Positions 16,880 through 26,978 of a stretch of 64,000 nucleotides of DNA are shown piece by piece (position 1 is the stretch's first letter; the number at the start of each line of letters is the position of its first letter). The stretch spans positions 62,001-126,000 of the forward strand of contig NZ_FOIJ01000012.1 of NCBI RefSeq assembly GCF_900111745.1. The letters run 5' to 3'. A model generated the notes under the pieces. That model saw nothing but the letters and a program-made list of their open reading frames with translations, was not told the origin of the DNA and did not search any database. A program made the position numbers and the translations under genes. The stretch comes from Stigmatella erecta. GTDB lineage: Bacteria; Myxococcota; Myxococcia; Myxococcales; Myxococcaceae.

Positions 16880-17317
16880 TTAGAGCCCCGCGAGCGCCTG
16901 CTGCGGGAAGCTCCGCGCGTCCACCTTGGGGGAGTACTCCTTTACCTTGCCGTCCGGCCCGATGATGACGCCCACGCGGCGCGCGTTGGGCGCCTGGGCA
17001 TCGTCACACGCCCCGTAGGCCAGCCCCACCTTGCGGTCGGTGTCGCACAGCAGGGGGAAGTTGAAGCCGAACTTCTCCGAGAACGCCCGGTTCTCCTCGG
17101 GCGTGTCGAAGCTGATGCCGAGGATCTCCGCGTTCTTCTGCTGGTAGCCCGCCTTGTGGTCGCGGAAGCCGCAGCCCTCGGCCGTGCAGCCGGGGGTGTC
17201 CGCCTTCGGGTAGAACCAGAGCACCACCGTCTTGCCCCGGTAGTCGGACAGCGAGTGCGTCCGGCCCGTGTGGTCGCGGACCGTGAAGTCCGGCGCCGTG
17301 TCTCCTGGTTTGAGCAT
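16880..17317 (-). CDS. bcp: Thioredoxin-dependent peroxiredoxin (Bcp/PrxQ type)
   Basis: The protein is 145 residues from ATG 17317 (MLKPGDTAPDF); the longer frame upstream is spurious. It reduces peroxides in the cytoplasm. Seen: LWFYPKADTPGCTAEGCGFRD, with the peroxidatic Cys (T-P-G-C-T) and the resolving Cys five residues on, typical of BCP/PrxQ. Further on, VGVIIGPDGKVKE. It lies 40 bp downstream of the CorE-like sigma gene on the same strand and may be the last gene of the copper operon, which would make sense because copper drives peroxide chemistry. Confidence 0.93.
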   Translation of the reverse strand: MLKPGDTAPDFTVRDHTGRTHSLSDYRGKTVVLWFYPKADTPGCTAEGCGFRDHKAGYQQKNAEILGISFDTPEENRAFSEKFGFNFPLLCDTDRKVGLAYGACDDAQAPNARRVGVIIGPDGKVKEYSPKVDARSFPQQALAGL

Positions 17318-17357
17318 GGGCGCCTTGTAGCACGGGCCCCCCGGCCTCACAGGCCGT

Positions 17358-17963
17358 TCAGTCCCCGTCCTTCCGCTCGTGAACAAGCGCCGCGGCGGAC
17401 CGGGCACAGTCACAGTCCAGACACCCCTGGGCCGCGCATGCGCCGCACGTCTTCTCCAGCCGCTTCTTGAGGGCCTGCCGGGCCCGGTGCAGCCGCACGG
17501 CCGCGTTGTTGGGGGTGATGCCCGAGGCCTCGGCGGCCTCCGCCAGCGAGCGCTCCTCCAGGTCCACCTGGCGCACGGCCCGCGCGTACTCGGGCTTGAG
17601 CGCCTCCAGCTCGCGGTGGAGGCACTGGCAGACCGAGCGCTTCAGCCCGGGCTGGAGCACCGCCCCTGCCGCGTCCCGGGCCTCCCGGGCCAGGGCCCGC
17701 TCCCCGGCCCGCGCGTGCCGCACGTGGTCCGCCAGGGCATTGCGCAGCACCCGGTAGAACCACGCCATCCACCGCGCGCCCTCCAGCGCCGGGGCCCCCC
17801 GCTCCAGCACCCGGACGAGGACGCCCTGGAGCACCTCCTCCGCCACGGGCTCGCTGCCCGTCCGCCGCAGGAGGAAGGCGCGGAAGCGGGGGTAGTTCGA
17901 CACGAGCCGCTGCCGGGCCGGCTCGGACAGGGGCCTGGGTTCGCTAGCCTTCCCTGGGTCCAT
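17358..17963 (-). CDS. CorE-like ECF sigma factor with C-terminal Cys-rich domain
   Basis: The protein is 201 residues. Sigma region 2 (ARWMAWFYRVLRNALADHVRHAR) and region 4 (RSLAEAAEASGITPNNAAVRLHRARQAL) are followed by KTCGACAAQGCLDCDC, a Cys-rich tail. Two more Cys (CQCLH) lie in the linker. This is the architecture of CorE from Myxococcus xanthus (ECF44), where the tail senses copper directly without an anti-sigma factor. The first 20 bp overlap the end of the multicopper oxidase gene, so it is probably cotranscribed with its likely targets. Copper control is inferred from the family and the neighbours. Confidence 0.88.
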   Translation of the reverse strand: MDPGKASEPRPLSEPARQRLVSNYPRFRAFLLRRTGSEPVAEEVLQGVLVRVLERGAPALEGARWMAWFYRVLRNALADHVRHARAGERALAREARDAAGAVLQPGLKRSVCQCLHRELEALKPEYARAVRQVDLEERSLAEAAEASGITPNNAAVRLHRARQALKKRLEKTCGACAAQGCLDCDCARSAAALVHERKDGD

Positions 17964-19254
17964 CGGGGAGCTCGATGCCGTCGGCGGCCAGTTGTTGCGC
18001 GGTGGCCGGGCCCGCCACGGTGCCTGGCGGGTGCACGTACCAGCCGTTCGGGTCGGCGCGGTCCGGGTCGTCGCGCACCTTGAGAATGGTGAACATGCCG
18101 CCCATGTCGATGTACGAGAACGGGCCCGGGCCGCCGCGCATGGGCAGGCTGTTGGGCGGCATGGGCATCTCCATCTCGCCCATGCCCCCCATGCCCATGG
18201 TTCCCATGGTCATGAAGTCCGGCATGACGCGGCTCATCCGGTGGTCCAGCTTCCGCGTGTCCGCGCCCACCATGTTCGGCATGCCGTGCCCCATCTGCGT
18301 CATGACGTGGTGTGTCATGTGGCAGTGCATGGCCCAGTCGCCCGGCTCGTCCGGCACGAACTCGATGACGCGGGTGCTGCCCACCGGCACAAGCACCGTG
18401 GTTTCCGGAATCTGCGCGGACGGCGGCACGTAGCCCCCATCCGTGGCCGTGAGCTTGAAGGACAGCCCGTGCAGGTGGATGGGGTGGTGGTCCATGGCGC
18501 TCAGGTTGCCCAGGCGGATGCGCACCCGCTCGCCCTTGCCCACCAGCAGGGGCTCGGTGGCCGGGAAGGACTTGCTGTTGAAGGTGAGGACGTTGAAGTC
18601 CGTCATCTCGTTGGGGTCCGGCCGCTTGGCGCCCACGTCCAGCCGCCACTCGTGCGTCATCAGCACGAAGTCCCGGTCCACGCGCGGGCCCACCGGCACC
18701 TTCGGGTGCACGATGAACATCCCCATCATGCCGAGCGCCATCTGGGTCATCTCGTCGAAGTGGGGGTGGTACATGAAGGTGCCCGGGTGGCGCAGGGTGA
18801 ACTCGTAGACGTACGTCTCCCCGGGCGGAATGGGGCGCTGGGTCAGCCCCGCCACGCCATCCATGCCGTTGGGCAGGATGACGCCGTGCCAGTGGGCCGT
18901 GGTGGGCTCCGGCAGCCGGTTGGTGACGTAGAGGCGGACCCGGTCCCCTTCCGTCACCTCGATGGTGGGCCCCGGCGTCCGGCCGTTGTAGCCCCAGGCG
19001 AGCGCCTTCATGCCCGGGGCGAACTCGTGCTCGAACTCTCCGGCGATGAGGTGGCCCACCTTCACCTTGCCCACCGTCTTCATGGGCAGCGTGGCCCCGT
19101 TGGGCGTGACGACGGCGACCTGGCCACCCGGGGCCACCACCCGCGCGGGCGGCGGCCTGCCCCCGGTGAGGGCCTCCGGCGCGGCCTGGGCCTTGCTGAC
19201 CATGGCCGCGCTCGTAGCGAGGCCGCTCCACTTCAGAAATGAACGGCGATCCAT
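17944..19254 (-). CDS. Multicopper oxidase (CuoB/CopA-like), Tat-exported
   Basis: The protein is 436 residues. Start ATG 19254 with AGGA just upstream; MDRRSFLKWSGLATSAAM is a Tat signal (RRxFLK), so it is exported folded. Copper ligands: AHWHG, MYHPHFDEM, HHPIHLHG and HCHMTHHVM, which complete the type 1 and trinuclear centres. Such enzymes oxidise Cu(I) to less toxic Cu(II) in the periplasm. A Met-rich stretch of 25 residues (about 360-395: repeated M-G-x-M, then MEMPMPP) probably binds extra Cu(I). It starts 4 bp after the outer-membrane efflux gene and overlaps the sigma gene. Confidence 0.93.
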   Translation of the reverse strand: MDRRSFLKWSGLATSAAMVSKAQAAPEALTGGRPPPARVVAPGGQVAVVTPNGATLPMKTVGKVKVGHLIAGEFEHEFAPGMKALAWGYNGRTPGPTIEVTEGDRVRLYVTNRLPEPTTAHWHGVILPNGMDGVAGLTQRPIPPGETYVYEFTLRHPGTFMYHPHFDEMTQMALGMMGMFIVHPKVPVGPRVDRDFVLMTHEWRLDVGAKRPDPNEMTDFNVLTFNSKSFPATEPLLVGKGERVRIRLGNLSAMDHHPIHLHGLSFKLTATDGGYVPPSAQIPETTVLVPVGSTRVIEFVPDEPGDWAMHCHMTHHVMTQMGHGMPNMVGADTRKLDHRMSRVMPDFMTMGTMGMGGMGEMEMPMPPNSLPMRGGPGPFSYIDMGGMFTILKVRDDPDRADPNGWYVHPPGTVAGPATAQQLAADGIELPDGPREG

Positions 19255-19258
19255 GGTC

Positions 19259-20692
19259 CTAATGCCCTCCCGCCTCGGCCCCACCGGCCAGCGATGGCGC
19301 GGTCCCCGCGCCCCGGGGTGCTCCCGCGCGCCGCCCCGCGAGCAGGGCGTCCAGCGCGGCCTGGGCCGTCCAGTGCTCCTGGAGCAGCCCCACGTAGGCC
19401 AGCTCCGCGTCGAGCTGCTCGCGGCGGGCCTGGAGCACCTGGAAGATGCCGATCTGCATGGCGTTGTACTGGAGCAGGGTCTGCCGCATGACGCGCTGCC
19501 GGGCCGGCAGGAGCACCTGCTGAGACTGCCGGGCGCGCAGGTACGTGGACTCCACGCGGTTGCGCGCCTCGCGCGCCGCGGAGCGGATGTCGATGGCCAT
19601 GCCCTGGTAACGCTCCATCAGCGCGTCGAACTCCGCCTCGGAGGCGGCGCGCGCTCCCTGCTGGCGGTCGAACAGCGGCACCGTGAAGTGGATGGCCCCG
19701 CCCCACGTCCACTCCCCATGCGAGGGGGCCCCATGGCCCTCCCGCTCGGCGATCACCCCCACGGTGACGTCCGGAATCCAGCCCTCCGCGCGCGTCAGCC
19801 CGGAGCGCTGGGCCGTGCCTTCCAGGCGGCGCTGGGCCTCCGCCAGCTCCAGGCTGGCCGTGAGGGCCTGGCGCTCCAGGTCCTCGAAGGCAGGGGCCTG
19901 TTCGGCCAGGCGCGGCAGGGTGTCCGTCACCGTCCAGGCGGTGGCCTCCCCATGCAGGCCCAGGAGGCGCTGGAGCTGCTCGCGGCGCTCGAGCGTCTCC
20001 AGCTCGAGCTGCGCCACGGTGGCCCGGGCCGACTCGTAGGCGGCCTCCTGGGTGGCGGTGTCCAGCTCGGGGATGTTGCCCGCCTCGAAGAGGGCCCGGC
20101 TGGCATCCCGGGCGGCGGCGAAGGCATCCAGGGCCTGGGTGGCGATGGCCATGCGCTGCTGCGCCGCCTGGAGCGCGTAGTGGGCCACGCGCACGGTGTA
20201 CCCCAGCTCCACGACGGTGCCCGCGGTGCGGTACCGGGCCGCCTCCAGCTCGCTGCGGGCCACCTGGGAGCGGACCACCGAGAGCAGGGCCCGCGAGAGG
20301 CCGTACTCGACACGGATCTCCGTCTGGGGCGAGAACGGCTGCCCGGGGTCCTCCTGCTGGTGCAGCTCCACCTCGACCGAGGGGTTGGGGAGCACCCCCG
20401 CCTGGACGAGCTGGCCGCGCGCCACCCCCAGCTCCCGCAGCGAGGCGCGAAGCTCCCGGTTGTTCAGCAACGCGATGCGCACCGCGGCCTCCGCGGTCAG
20501 CGGCTGCTGGAGCAACGCCCGCACCTCCTCGGGCAGCCCCTGCGCCTCGTCCCGGGGCAGGGCCAGCTGCGAGGACAGCGGCACCCGCGTGAGCTCCCGG
20601 ACCCGGGTGAGATCCGACTGCATGGACGGGGAGACGCACCCGGTCCACCCCAGCAGCACCGCGAGCCCGGCCACGGACCGGTTAGTTCCCAT
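19259..20692 (-). CDS. TolC/CusC-like outer-membrane efflux lipoprotein
   Basis: The protein is 477 residues from ATG 20692. The signal MGTNRSVAGLAVLLGWTGC carries a lipobox. Two outer-membrane-efflux repeats are visible: LTAEAAVRIALLNNRELRASLRELGVARGQLVQAGVLPNPSVEV and, later, the second half with IHFTVPLFDRQQGARAASEAE. Long amphipathic helices lie between them (AAQQRMAIATQALDAFAAAR). These proteins form trimeric channels through the outer membrane, usually with RND pump partners; none is encoded nearby. Placed directly before the multicopper oxidase, copper export is the likely job. It overlaps the upstream lipoprotein gene by 11 bp. Confidence 0.9.
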   Translation of the reverse strand: MGTNRSVAGLAVLLGWTGCVSPSMQSDLTRVRELTRVPLSSQLALPRDEAQGLPEEVRALLQQPLTAEAAVRIALLNNRELRASLRELGVARGQLVQAGVLPNPSVEVELHQQEDPGQPFSPQTEIRVEYGLSRALLSVVRSQVARSELEAARYRTAGTVVELGYTVRVAHYALQAAQQRMAIATQALDAFAAARDASRALFEAGNIPELDTATQEAAYESARATVAQLELETLERREQLQRLLGLHGEATAWTVTDTLPRLAEQAPAFEDLERQALTASLELAEAQRRLEGTAQRSGLTRAEGWIPDVTVGVIAEREGHGAPSHGEWTWGGAIHFTVPLFDRQQGARAASEAEFDALMERYQGMAIDIRSAAREARNRVESTYLRARQSQQVLLPARQRVMRQTLLQYNAMQIGIFQVLQARREQLDAELAYVGLLQEHWTAQAALDALLAGRRAGAPRGAGTAPSLAGGAEAGGH

Positions 20693-20984
20693 GCCCCTGC
20701 CCTCCTTCCGGCGCGCCCGCCTGTCCGCCCGCGCCGCCCTTCGTGAGGGGAGGCTGCTCCTCGAGCCCCTGCCAGTGCTCCGTGGGCTCCCCGGGCAAGG
20801 GCGGCTCCTGCTGGAGCATCGCTCCGATGCGGGCCTCCGGCGCGGCGTCCGCCTCGGGGGAGGCCGCGGACGCCGGGGGGAAGGACGCGGGAAAGGCGCG
20901 CGGCGCGCAGGCACTCAAGGGCGCGGTGGCTACCAGGGCAATCAACACGGCTCGCATCGGCACAGAAGGGGTCCAGACCATCAT
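20682..20984 (-). CDS. Small lipoprotein heading the copper operon
   Basis: The protein is about 100 residues. MRAVLIALVATAPLSAC gives a lipobox (PLSAC), followed by a Pro/Ala/Glu-rich mature part without recognisable domains (QQEPPLPGEPTEHWQGLEE). The start is uncertain: ATGs at 21005, 20984, 20981 and 20957 are in frame. The proposed promoter element at 21043-21018 would put the RNA start near 21011, which argues against 21005; 20984 or 20957 is favoured. It overlaps the efflux gene by 11 bp. Similar small lipoproteins often accompany outer-membrane metal efflux genes, but no function can be claimed. Confidence 0.6.
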   Translation of the reverse strand: MMVWTPSVPMRAVLIALVATAPLSACAPRAFPASFPPASAASPEADAAPEARIGAMLQQEPPLPGEPTEHWQGLEEQPPLTKGGAGGQAGAPEGGQGHGN

Positions 20985-21017
20985 CGGGTGAAAGCTTCGG
21001 CCCATCACCTCCCTGTA

Positions 21018-21043
21018 GACGCCCTTCTCCGGCGGGCATTACA
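21018..21043 (-). promoter_or_regulatory. Proposed ECF promoter of the oxidase/sigma operon (TGTAAT-N16-CGTC)
   Basis: Read on the minus strand, TGTAAT is followed after exactly 16 bp by CGTC, a spacing and -10 form typical of ECF sigma promoters. It points toward the lipoprotein-efflux-oxidase-sigma operon. The same element with the same spacing lies 35 bp away on the other strand, pointing toward copA. Recognition by the CorE-like sigma factor is inference. Confidence 0.65.
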
Positions 21044-21078
21044 CCCAAGGGGGAAGGGCTCCGGGGCGGGCGAAGCGG

Positions 21079-21104
21079 TGTAATCCCCGGGAAGGCAGTG
21101 CGTC
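21079..21104 (+). promoter_or_regulatory. Proposed ECF promoter of copA (TGTAAT-N16-CGTC)
   Basis: TGTAAT, 16 bp, then CGTC, ending 50 bp before the copA ATG at 21155, which has GAGGAG as ribosome site. It is identical in both boxes and spacing to the divergent element at 21043-21018. The shared element implies co-regulation of both arms of the copper locus. Confidence 0.65.
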
Positions 21105-21154
21105 TCCACAAACGGGCCCCGGCGCATCCGCGGCACGGCCCCTGAGGAGACGCG

Positions 21155-23440
21155 ATGCAACCCACGAACCCGTGGAGGCAGAACAGTATGGCCCGGGCCC
21201 TGGATGCCCAGCCATTCGAACTTTTGATCCAAGGCATGACGTGCGCCTCGTGTGCCCGGCGTGTCGAGCGAGCCCTCGCCGAGGTTCCAGGGGTCCACGA
21301 GGCGGCGGTCAACTTCGCCACCCAGCGCGCCTCCGGGCGCTATGAGCCGCGGCAGGCCCGCCCGGACGCCCTGGCCGAGGCCGTGGCCCGCGCGGGTTAT
21401 CGTGCCCTTGCCCGGGCCCCGGGCGAGCAGACCCAGGGTGAGCCCCGGGCGCTCCAGCGGGAGCTGCGGCTGGCCGTGGCGCTCACGGTGCCGCTCCTGG
21501 TCATCGCCATGTCCCATGGCGCCCTTCCCGGGACGGAAGGGCCGTGGGGCCGGTGGCTCCAGTTCGCCCTGGCCACGCCGGTCGTCCTGGGCCCCGGGCG
21601 CCGCTTCTTCACCCGGGCGTGGGCCGCGCTCCGGCACCGGACCGCCGACATGAACACACTCGTGGCCCTGGGCGCGGGGGCCGCCTGGAGCTACTCGACG
21701 GCCGCGCTCGTGGCGCCCGGGCTCTTTGCCCACGCCGGGCATGGCCGGGTGCCCCACCTCTATTTCGAGGCGGCCGCCGCCATCCTCACCTTCGTGCTCC
21801 TGGGCAAGCTCCTCGAAGCCCGCGCCCAGCGCCGGCTCCTGGACGCGGTGCGTGGCCTGATGGCCCTTCAGCCCCAGCGGGCCCGGCGCCTCCAGGGCGA
21901 GCACGAGGAGGACGTCCCCCTGGGCCAGCTCGTGCCGGGCGACACCGTGCGCGTGCGGCCTGGAGAGCGCATCCCCACGGACGGGGAGGTGGTGCGCGGC
22001 GCCTCGGCCGTGGATGAGTCGATGCTCACGGGCGAGGGCCTGCCCGTGGACAAGGCGGCGGGGGCCCCGGTCTTCGGCGGCACGCTCAACCAGAGCGGCG
22101 CGTTGATCGTCCGCGTCCTCCAGACGGGTCAGGGCACAGCACTGGCGCGCATCATCGAGGCCGTCGAGCAGGCCCAGGGCTCACGCGCCCCCATTGCCCG
22201 GCTCGCGGATGCGGTCAGTGGCGTCTTCGTCCCCATCGTGCTCGGCATCGCGGCGATGACCTTCGGGGTCTGGGTGGGGCTGGACCCGAGCAGCGAGGGC
22301 CTCGCCACGGCGCTCGAGCGGTTCGTGGCGGTGCTCGTCATCGCCTGCCCGTGCGCGCTGGGGCTCGCCACCCCCGCGGCCGTGGCCGTGGGCACCGGAC
22401 GCGGCGCGGAGCTGGGCATCCTCATCAAAGGAGGCGCCGCGCTCGAGGCGGCCAGCCGCATCGACACGGTCCTCTTGGACAAGACGGGGACGCTCACCGA
22501 GGGCAAGCCCTCGCTCACGGAGGTCATCGCCCTCCCCCCCCGGGCCGCCTCCCCCCTGCTCTCCTGGACCGCCAGCGCCGAGCGCGAGAGCGAGCACCCC
22601 ATCGCCCGTGCCCTCGTCGAGGGGGCCCGCGAGCGCGGCGTGCCGCTCCGCCCCGTGGAGGGCTTCCGCTCGGAGGCCGGCCACGGCATCGAGGCCCAGG
22701 TGGAGGGCCACACCGTGCGCGTGGGCACCCGGGCCTGGCTGGGCCTGGCGGGGATCGACGCCCATCCGCTCGAAGCGGACGCCGGGCGCCTCGCCGCCCA
22801 GGGGCAGACGCCCTTCTTCGTCGCCGTGGACGGGGCGCTCGCGGGGCTCGTGGCCGTCGCGGACCGGCCCACCGGGGCGGCCCGCCCGGTGGTGAGCGCC
22901 CTGGGCGCCATGGGCCTCGACACCCTCATGGTCACGGGCGACCGGGCAAGCACGGCCCAGGCGGTGGCGCATGAACTGGGCATCCGCACGGTGTTCTCCG
23001 AGGTAAAACCCGAGGACAAGGCCCGCATCGTCCGGGAGCAGCGCGCCCGCGGCCGGACGGTGGCCATGGTGGGAGATGGCATCAACGACGCCCCCGCGCT
23101 CGCCGAGGCCCACGTGGGCATCGCCCTGGGCACGGGCACGGACATCGCGGTGGCCGCGGCGGACGTCACCCTGCTGCGAGGGGGCCTCGCCGCCCTGCCC
23201 ACCGCGCTTCAGCTCGCGAGGGCCACCCTGAGGACCGTGCGCCAGAACCTCTTCTGGGCCTTCCTCTACAATGGGATGGGGATTCCGCTGGCCGCCGGGC
23301 TTCTCTATCCTTGGACGGGGTGGCTGCTGTCCCCCATCGTCGCGAGCGTGGCCATGTCGCTGTCGAGCGTGTCCGTGCTGGCCAACTCCCTGCGCCTGAG
23401 GCGCTTCCAGCCTCCGGCCTCGCTGCCCGTTCACCCCTGA
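21155..23440 (+). CDS. copA: Copper-exporting P1B-type ATPase
   Basis: The protein is 761 residues, full length. An N-terminal heavy-metal-associated domain carries [12 protein letters not shown] (residues about 28-40). The membrane part has eight hydrophobic segments with the transport motif [12 protein letters not shown]. The actuator loop has [15 protein letters not shown]; the phosphorylation site is [22 protein letters not shown] is the nucleotide-binding HP signature, and [13 protein letters not shown] the hinge. The end has [18 protein letters not shown] and [19 protein letters not shown], as in Cu(I) pumps. It exports Cu(I) from the cytoplasm. It starts divergently from the oxidase operon and is followed after 12 bp by a cupredoxin gene. 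Confidence 0.96.
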
Positions 23441-23452
23441 GGAGACCTCCGC

Positions 23453-23833
23453 ATGAAACCGCTCCGAACCCTCTTCCTGGCCTCCACCCTCGCCCTGCTG
23501 CTGCCGCGGGGGGCCTCGGCCGAGGAGGCCGCCGCCCCCGCCGGGGAGGCCGCCCCCGCCGTGCGCGAAATCGAGGTCATCGTCGACCGGGGCTACAAGC
23601 CGGTGCGCATCGAGGCCGTGGAGGGCGAGCGCGTCCGGCTCAAGTTCATCCGGCGCGAGTACACGCCGTGCACCCGCGAGGTCATCCTGCCCTCGCTGAA
23701 CATCCGCCAGGAGTTGCCCCCCAACAAGCCCGTCACCGTGGACCTGCCGCCCCTCAAGGCCGGGGACGTGGAGTTCCTGTGCGGCATGAAGATGTTCCGC
23801 GGCACGCTGGTGGTGACGCCCCGCCCAGGCTGA
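23453..23833 (+). CDS. Exported cupredoxin-like copper protein
   Basis: The protein is 126 residues. A signal peptide (MKPLRTLFLASTLALLLPRGASAEE) precedes one cupredoxin-like domain: VIVDRGYKPVRIEAVEGERVRLKFIRREYTPCTREV, then VDLPPLKAGDVEFLCGMKMFRGTLVV. The C-G-M-K-M segment is where copper ligands lie in the EfeO-type cupredoxin group, and Cys in YTPCTREV may add another. It lies 12 bp after copA in the same orientation, so it is probably made with the pump. A role as periplasmic copper acceptor or chaperone is inferred. Confidence 0.85.
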   Translation: MKPLRTLFLASTLALLLPRGASAEEAAAPAGEAAPAVREIEVIVDRGYKPVRIEAVEGERVRLKFIRREYTPCTREVILPSLNIRQELPPNKPVTVDLPPLKAGDVEFLCGMKMFRGTLVVTPRPG

Positions 23834-26462: not shown

Positions 26463-26978
26463 TCAGGGCGCCGGGGCCTTCTTCGCGTCCTGCTTGCGCA
26501 GCGGGCAGGCCGCGATGGCCGAGGACGGGTCCACGGCGTCCTTGCCGGAGTCCACCTTGAGCACCTTGCGGCCCTCGCCCACCACGAACGTGTAGCGCTG
26601 GGCGAAGGACATCACCGGCGTCTTCACGTCGAACTGCTTCACCAGCTTGCCGTCCGGGTCGGGGATGAAGGCGAAGGGCGCCTTGAGCGAGTCCTTGAAC
26701 TTCTTGAGCGTCTCCGTGTCGTCCATGGAGATGGCCAGCACCTGGCCCTTGAGCTTCTCGATGTCCGCGTACCGGTCCCGGTAGGCCGTCAGCTCGCTCG
26801 TGCACCCGGGGGTGAACGCCTTGGGGAAGAAGGCCACGATGACCGGGCCCTCCTTCACCTTCTCCGACAGCGTGTACGACTTGCCGTCGGTGTCGGTGAC
26901 CGTGAAGTCCGGAGCCGTGTCACCGGCCTGGGGAACCGCTGCCGCGAGGAAACCTGCCGTCAGGAGGGGAAGGAGCAT
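26463..26978 (-). CDS. Exported peroxiredoxin (AhpC/TSA)
   Basis: The protein is 171 residues. A short hydrophobic start ([19 protein letters not shown]) suggests export. The peroxiredoxin fold follows: [36 protein letters not shown] with the peroxidatic Cys, and [17 protein letters not shown] second Cys near the C-terminus ([13 protein letters not shown]) may be resolving. A strong ribosome site (AAGGAGG) lies upstream. It starts 9 bp after the amidohydrolase stop, so the two form an operon. Peroxide removal in the periplasm is likely. Confidence 0.88.

Follow-up and report, generated by a model that had tools for sequence, protein, structure and literature searches.

The locus considered here raises the question of what reads a pair of matching sequence elements lying back to back between two sets of copper genes. 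In the 64-kb stretch of Stigmatella DNA that was analysed (the window), the minus strand carries genes for a small lipoprotein (MRAVLIALVATAPLSAC...; 20682..20963, starting with GTG 20963 or ATG 20957), an outer-membrane efflux protein of the CusC/OEP type (19259..20689, with a real start at about 20689), a CuoB-like multicopper oxidase with a Tat signal (17944..19284) and a 201-aa CorE-like ECF sigma factor with sigma2, sigma4 and Cys-rich C-terminal domains (17358..17963). The efflux gene overlaps the start of the oxidase gene, which itself overlaps the start of the sigma gene, and since the four genes overlap successively they probably form a single operon. On the plus strand, the gene of the P1B-type copper ATPase CopA (21155..23440; HMA, E1-E2 ATPase and HAD domains) is followed by one for a cupredoxin-like protein (23453..23833). 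A leaderless start of the lipoprotein at 21005, in an upstream frame beginning with ATGGGCC, was ruled out, the frame being broken in the close relative L144. Directly downstream of the sigma gene and overlapping it lies a minus-strand peroxiredoxin gene (AhpC/TSA; 16880-17413), which may belong to the operon as its fifth gene; the window contains another AhpC/TSA gene at 26463-26978. No anti-sigma gene is linked to the sigma gene, whose neighbours encode the OEP, the oxidase, the peroxiredoxin, CopA, the cupredoxin and unrelated enzymes.

The element facing the sigma operon reads TGTAATGCCCGCCGGAGAAGGGCGTC (21043-21018, minus strand), with a -35 box TGTAAT at 21043-21038 and a -10 box CGTC at 21021-21018; the one facing copA reads TGTAATCCCCGGGAAGGCAGTGCGTC (21079-21104, plus strand), with the same boxes at 21079-21084 and 21101-21104. 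Coordinates, boxes and the 16-bp spacing are exactly those given in the first-pass annotation. It had called the elements identical, which holds for the boxes and for the spacer length, but the spacers differ in sequence. The two elements are divergent and ~60 bp apart, in the arrangement ATTACA-N35-TGTAAT. As in ECF promoters, the boxes stand at a fixed spacing and point toward gene starts; their -35 carries AAT, not the canonical ECF AAC. With only ten specified bases per element, one might suspect a chance pair of short matches. However, TGTAAY-N16-CGTC occurs exactly twice in the window, compared with a mean of 0.02 in 100 dinucleotide shuffles, none of which contained two matches, and the observation is thus far beyond chance. 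Across the complete genome (9.21 Mb), 4 matches to TGTAAN-N16-CGTC were counted, versus 26 to a reversed control pattern; because the two outside the window (C5:261785 and C9:294789) are both TGTAAC and both within coding ORFs, TGTAA[G/T]-N16-CGTC is found only at the window pair. The elements are also kept in congeners (in one as paired TGTCAT) and recur at corE-like loci of distant phyla, where the spacing counts given below refute a chance origin, to which we attach practically no probability.

The sigma factor encoded beside the elements scores above the gathering score for PF04542 (sigma2) and PF08281 (sigma4), and has a CXC motif (C112-Q-C114) in the linker between these domains. Its tail, C173-x2-C176-x4-C181-x2-C184-x-C186, has a spacing identical to that of C181/184/189/192/194 in Myxococcus xanthus CorE. 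The four Cys residues that are invariant in CorE-like (former ECF44) sigmas (CorE 181, 184, 192 and 194) are matched by C173, C176, C184 and C186, and C181 is the counterpart of CorE C189, which matters more for activation by copper than any other residue. In the tail comparison, a counterpart of CorE C206, mutation of which has a minor effect, is absent from the window sigma. M. xanthus CorE is a Cu-dependent sigma factor with copper-dependent DNA binding (PMC3107203), in agreement with the first-pass annotation. In a quick tree with a long branch (0.94), the window and other Stigmatella sigmas fall into a sub-branch of 16 rows with an SH-aLRT of 95, L135, the copper CorE of the M. xanthus type, lying outside it. 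The window protein is probably not a strict orthologue of MXAN_3426 and, since the tree puts it outside the M. xanthus copper-CorE branch, the label 'CorE-like' is safer than 'CorE orthologue'.

If such sigmas read the element, it should accompany their genes elsewhere. The corE-like loci were collected by protein similarity only, and the pattern tested was taken from the window. In the main set of 120 loci (1.56 Mb, from Myxococcota, Acidobacteriota, Nitrospirota, Gemmatimonadota, Planctomycetota and Opitutaceae), TGTAAN was followed by CGTC 95 times at a spacing of 16, against 0-6 times at each other spacing from 9 to 24; the controls gave 1-11 for the reversed pattern and 0-9 for resampled sequence. 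The sixth base was G in 58% and T in 41%. In 37 held-out loci, TGTAA[GT] and CGTC were combined 29 times at spacing 16, 7 times at 17 and 0-1 times at any other; the CGTT variant occurred 8 times, at spacing 16 only, and TGTAA[AC]-CGTC 5 times at 16 versus 0-1 elsewhere. The consensus TGTAA[TC]-N16-CGTC proposed initially has therefore to be replaced: as read from these loci, the family consensus is TGTAA[G/T]-N16-CGT[C/T], with C at the sixth base mainly alongside CorE2-like sigmas. The DNA examined contains no exact site at 26 of the 157 corE-like loci, S. aurantiaca included. In some CorE sub-branches (L166, L175, L185, L191, L192 and L196), seven TGTAAT sites have a 17-bp instead of a 16-bp spacer.

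In both sets of loci, position +28 (first T of TGTAA = 0) is a conserved C, and positions +35/+36, about 10 nt after CGTC, are a pair of purines; this pair is likely the start of transcription. From the conserved purine 35-36 nt past the T, transcription is predicted to start near 21008 for the minus-strand promoter and near 21114 for copA, the latter with a leader of about 40 nt. By a mechanical ORF call, the median distance from the -10 box to the nearest ORF start downstream is 49 nt. Among the first downstream genes (115 non-redundant ORFs searched with Pfam), there were 20 P1B ATPases, 16 sigma factors (corE itself), 13 HMBD, 10 HMA, 8 YHS, 7 OEP, 6 cupredoxin and 3 cation efflux proteins, these counts being approximate as the choice of ORF was mechanical.

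A different role for the boxes has to be weighed at this point. They could be half-sites or operators of a conventional copper repressor or activator (one with a CopY-like TACA..TGTA box, for instance, or a dimeric regulator), transcription then starting from ordinary sigma-70 promoters. TGTA does resemble the half-sites of copper boxes, and the window boxes, which face apart, are inverted relative to each other. But at most loci the element is single and non-palindromic, the CGTC at exactly 16 bp is conserved as well as TGTAA, the element tracks corE-like genes and fits the sigma4 contacts described below, and a Pfam scan of ten further neighbouring proteins found no transcription-regulator family and no second copper regulator among them. 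We consider an operator role very unlikely.

The contacts known from ECF sigma structures can be set against the bases of the -35 box. R171 of sigmaE (K170 in SigW) reads the G opposite C-31, S172 (T171) reads -34, F175 (H174) contacts T'-32/T'-33 and R176 (R175) reads G-35 (PMC6713349). The recognition helix of the window sigma, NNAAVRLHRARQ, aligns gap-free to the solved ECF structures, with A155, V156, H159 and R160 as the respective equivalents. Position 160 is Arg in 159 of 159 proteins, and G-35 is invariant; position 156 is Val in 157 of the 159, and T-34 is invariant. Most proteins have Ala or Gly at position 155, a residue that goes with TGTAA[G/T]; six have Lys instead, and the locus of each of these has a TGTAAC site. 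Promoters of Escherichia coli sigmaE and Bacillus subtilis SigW have the same two-box ECF design as those of the window, but their canonical AAC is read by R171/K170, whereas CorE-type sigmas combine Ala/Gly with AA[G/T]. The published structures thus suggest that the AAC core is absent because the residue that reads its usual C is Ala/Gly in CorE-type sigmas. The association of Lys with C has about two independent origins, too few for a statistical test, and there are exceptions (Arg with TGTAAT at L188, Ala with TGTAAC at L122). The idea that residue 155 or 159 alone determines G or T at the sixth base is unsupported on the tree. M. xanthus CorE2, which responds to Cd/Zn (PMC8999054), shares family and promoter architecture with the window sigma; the CorE2-like proteins L172, L173, L183 and L184 (assigned from their Cys pattern) differ from it by Lys in place of the CorE Ala, by a TGTAAC -35 box and by another Cys spacing. 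At these four loci and at L118, where the sigma is also CorE2-like with Lys at the R171-equivalent, TGTAAC sites are the sole ones (with a 17-bp spacer at L118).

Close relatives of the window provide a second comparison of helix and box. In an alignment of the window with three related loci, both TGTAAT elements are kept in two congeners. At the third locus, L145, which we take to be from S. aurantiaca DW4/3-1, the layout is divergent as in the window and each of the two elements reads TGTCAT-N16-CGTC; their starts lie upstream of the corE match by 3089 and 3161 nt. Since TGTCAT-N16-CGTC is not rare genome-wide, this reading of L145 rests on position and alignment. Its sigma differs in the recognition helix from that of the near relative L144 (NHAAVRLYRARK versus NNAAVRLHRARQ) by N153H, H159Y and Q163K, and the base changed in TGTCAT, at -33, is the one contacted by residue 159 (the F175-equivalent), which is Tyr in L145. 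The CorE of S. aurantiaca DW4/3-1, STIAU_8272 (PMC3107203), is a likely orthologue of the window sigma. That both elements are altered together suggests selection on both by the same reader. It seems to us probable that CorE-type sigmas of many phyla recognize one non-canonical promoter through having Ala/Gly in place of the AAC-reading Arg/Lys, that AAC came back with Lys in CorE2-like proteins, and that the His-to-Tyr change accompanied by TGTCAT at both S. aurantiaca promoters represents a sigma rewired together with all its promoters.

The same data bear on whether the elements could be promoters of another ECF sigma, to which the CorE-like gene would be merely linked. The genome gives weak matches to eight further ECF-like sigma genes, and the general architecture is common to ECF promoters. 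Yet in many phyla the element goes with corE-like genes, and the genome holds a single pair; in addition, the variable bases agree within loci in 55 of 72 and 68 of 72 pairs, versus 33 and 51 after shuffling, many of the loci being close relatives. We regard this alternative as highly improbable, to the same degree as an operator role.

Very probably, then, the two elements are divergent ECF promoters recognized by RNA polymerase with the neighbouring CorE-like sigma. What we infer in this explanation is that the window sigma binds the elements, that it depends on copper as CorE of M. xanthus does, and where transcription starts. In excess copper, the metal would be bound by the Cys-rich tail of the sigma, sigma4 would read TGTAAT and sigma2 CGTC, and the lipoprotein-OEP-oxidase-sigma operon and copA would be transcribed outward; with its gene last in the operon, the sigma would partly drive its own expression. 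The first-pass annotation had predicted a CorE regulon with this element as the CorE site, and its prediction gains support from the link with corE-like genes at a fixed spacing, from the metal genes that the element faces and from the fit with sigma4/-35 contacts. Its suggestion of an autoregulated sigma gene needs qualification, autoregulation of corE being only partial in M. xanthus (PMC3107203).

In M. xanthus, expression of cuoB and copB is lost in a corE mutant and MXAN_3427 also needs CorE, while copA depends on CorE only transiently and has a second copper regulator (PMC3107203). By analogy, the window operon might be driven by CorE and copA mainly by another copper regulator, the CorE element providing a fast initial burst. 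Such mixed control, compatible with the preferred explanation, was suggested for M. xanthus copA (PMC3107203); against it, no second regulator gene is seen in the neighbourhood and the two elements show a joint change in the presumed S. aurantiaca. We see it as a tentative option, somewhat doubtful on balance.

In the 2011 study, putative CorE sites were assigned to the upstream regions of copB, copA, an HMA gene and the OEP-cuoB-corE operon, from a motif with an AAC core and a G 16-18 nt further on (PMC3107203); this motif is likely identical to TGTAAG-N16-CGTC. Of the 24 genome-wide TGTAAG-N16-CGTC sites in five genomes of the M. xanthus type, 20 belong to the copper locus. Each genome has four of these, which precede copB, a cupredoxin gene, the lipoprotein-OEP-cuoB-corE operon and an HMA gene. 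A literal scan of 27 Myxococcus genomes with TGTAA[TC]-N16-CGTC, the pattern put forward in the first-pass annotation, gave no enrichment, because Myxococcus uses TGTAAG. There are four sites, all CGTC, at the Myxococcus copper CorE loci L135, L137, L139, L140 and L171, and three, all CGTT, at L168 and L195; Myxococcus/Corallococcus loci without an exact match have TGTAAG-N16-CGTT (22 sites, versus 0.1 at other spacings). At L135, where the exact TGTAAG-N16-CGTC stands about -3960 from corE, and at its orthologues, the cupredoxin gene that follows this site is outside the four named with CorE sites in PMC3107203.

Like the M. xanthus CorE regulon (MXAN_3426), the window has a copper-locus ECF sigma with a Cys-rich tail and a site before the OEP-oxidase-sigma operon. 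It differs by its TGTAAT instead of TGTAAG, by the number of its sites, which are just the two that diverge between copA and the sigma operon, with none for copB or an HMA gene, and by a sigma that the tree places in another CorE sub-branch. The comparison supports the view that the pair is a Stigmatella-type member of the known CorE regulon, and this interpretation is mostly not new. The ECF concerned in copper tagRNA-seq of Caulobacter is SigF, different from CorE. In the literature covered, which excluded 10.1093/nar/gkw150 (CorE2) and 10.1093/nar/gkaa1229 (the 2021 ECF reclassification), we did not find the family element TGTAA[G/T]-N16-CGT[C/T], the loss of AAC with the residue that reads it, or the paired change in S. 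aurantiaca. A reliable signature would make CorE regulons predictable in uncultured or non-model bacteria, where an anti-sigma gene gives no help, and offers a yardstick for the M. xanthus site of 2011, whose core is AAC. With one sigma and both its promoters apparently altered together, the Stigmatella pair amounts to a natural experiment and makes sigma4 specificity directly testable.

Two further observations concern related genes. Outside the window (G000:C12:241931-243940), the genome encodes another copper-type P1B ATPase with 52% identity to CopA, and no exact element lies upstream of its gene. Myxococcus and Corallococcus have a CorE-like paralogue (L149, L125-L134, L147-L162) that is 53-60% identical to the window sigma, compared with 48-50% for M. 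xanthus copper CorE. The idea that these paralogues are without copper neighbours is contradicted by at least one example, L149, which lies directly downstream of genes for an RND pump and a cupredoxin-domain protein. In most members of the group, a TGTAAG-N16-CGTT site is found 1.8-2.8 kb downstream of the paralogue.
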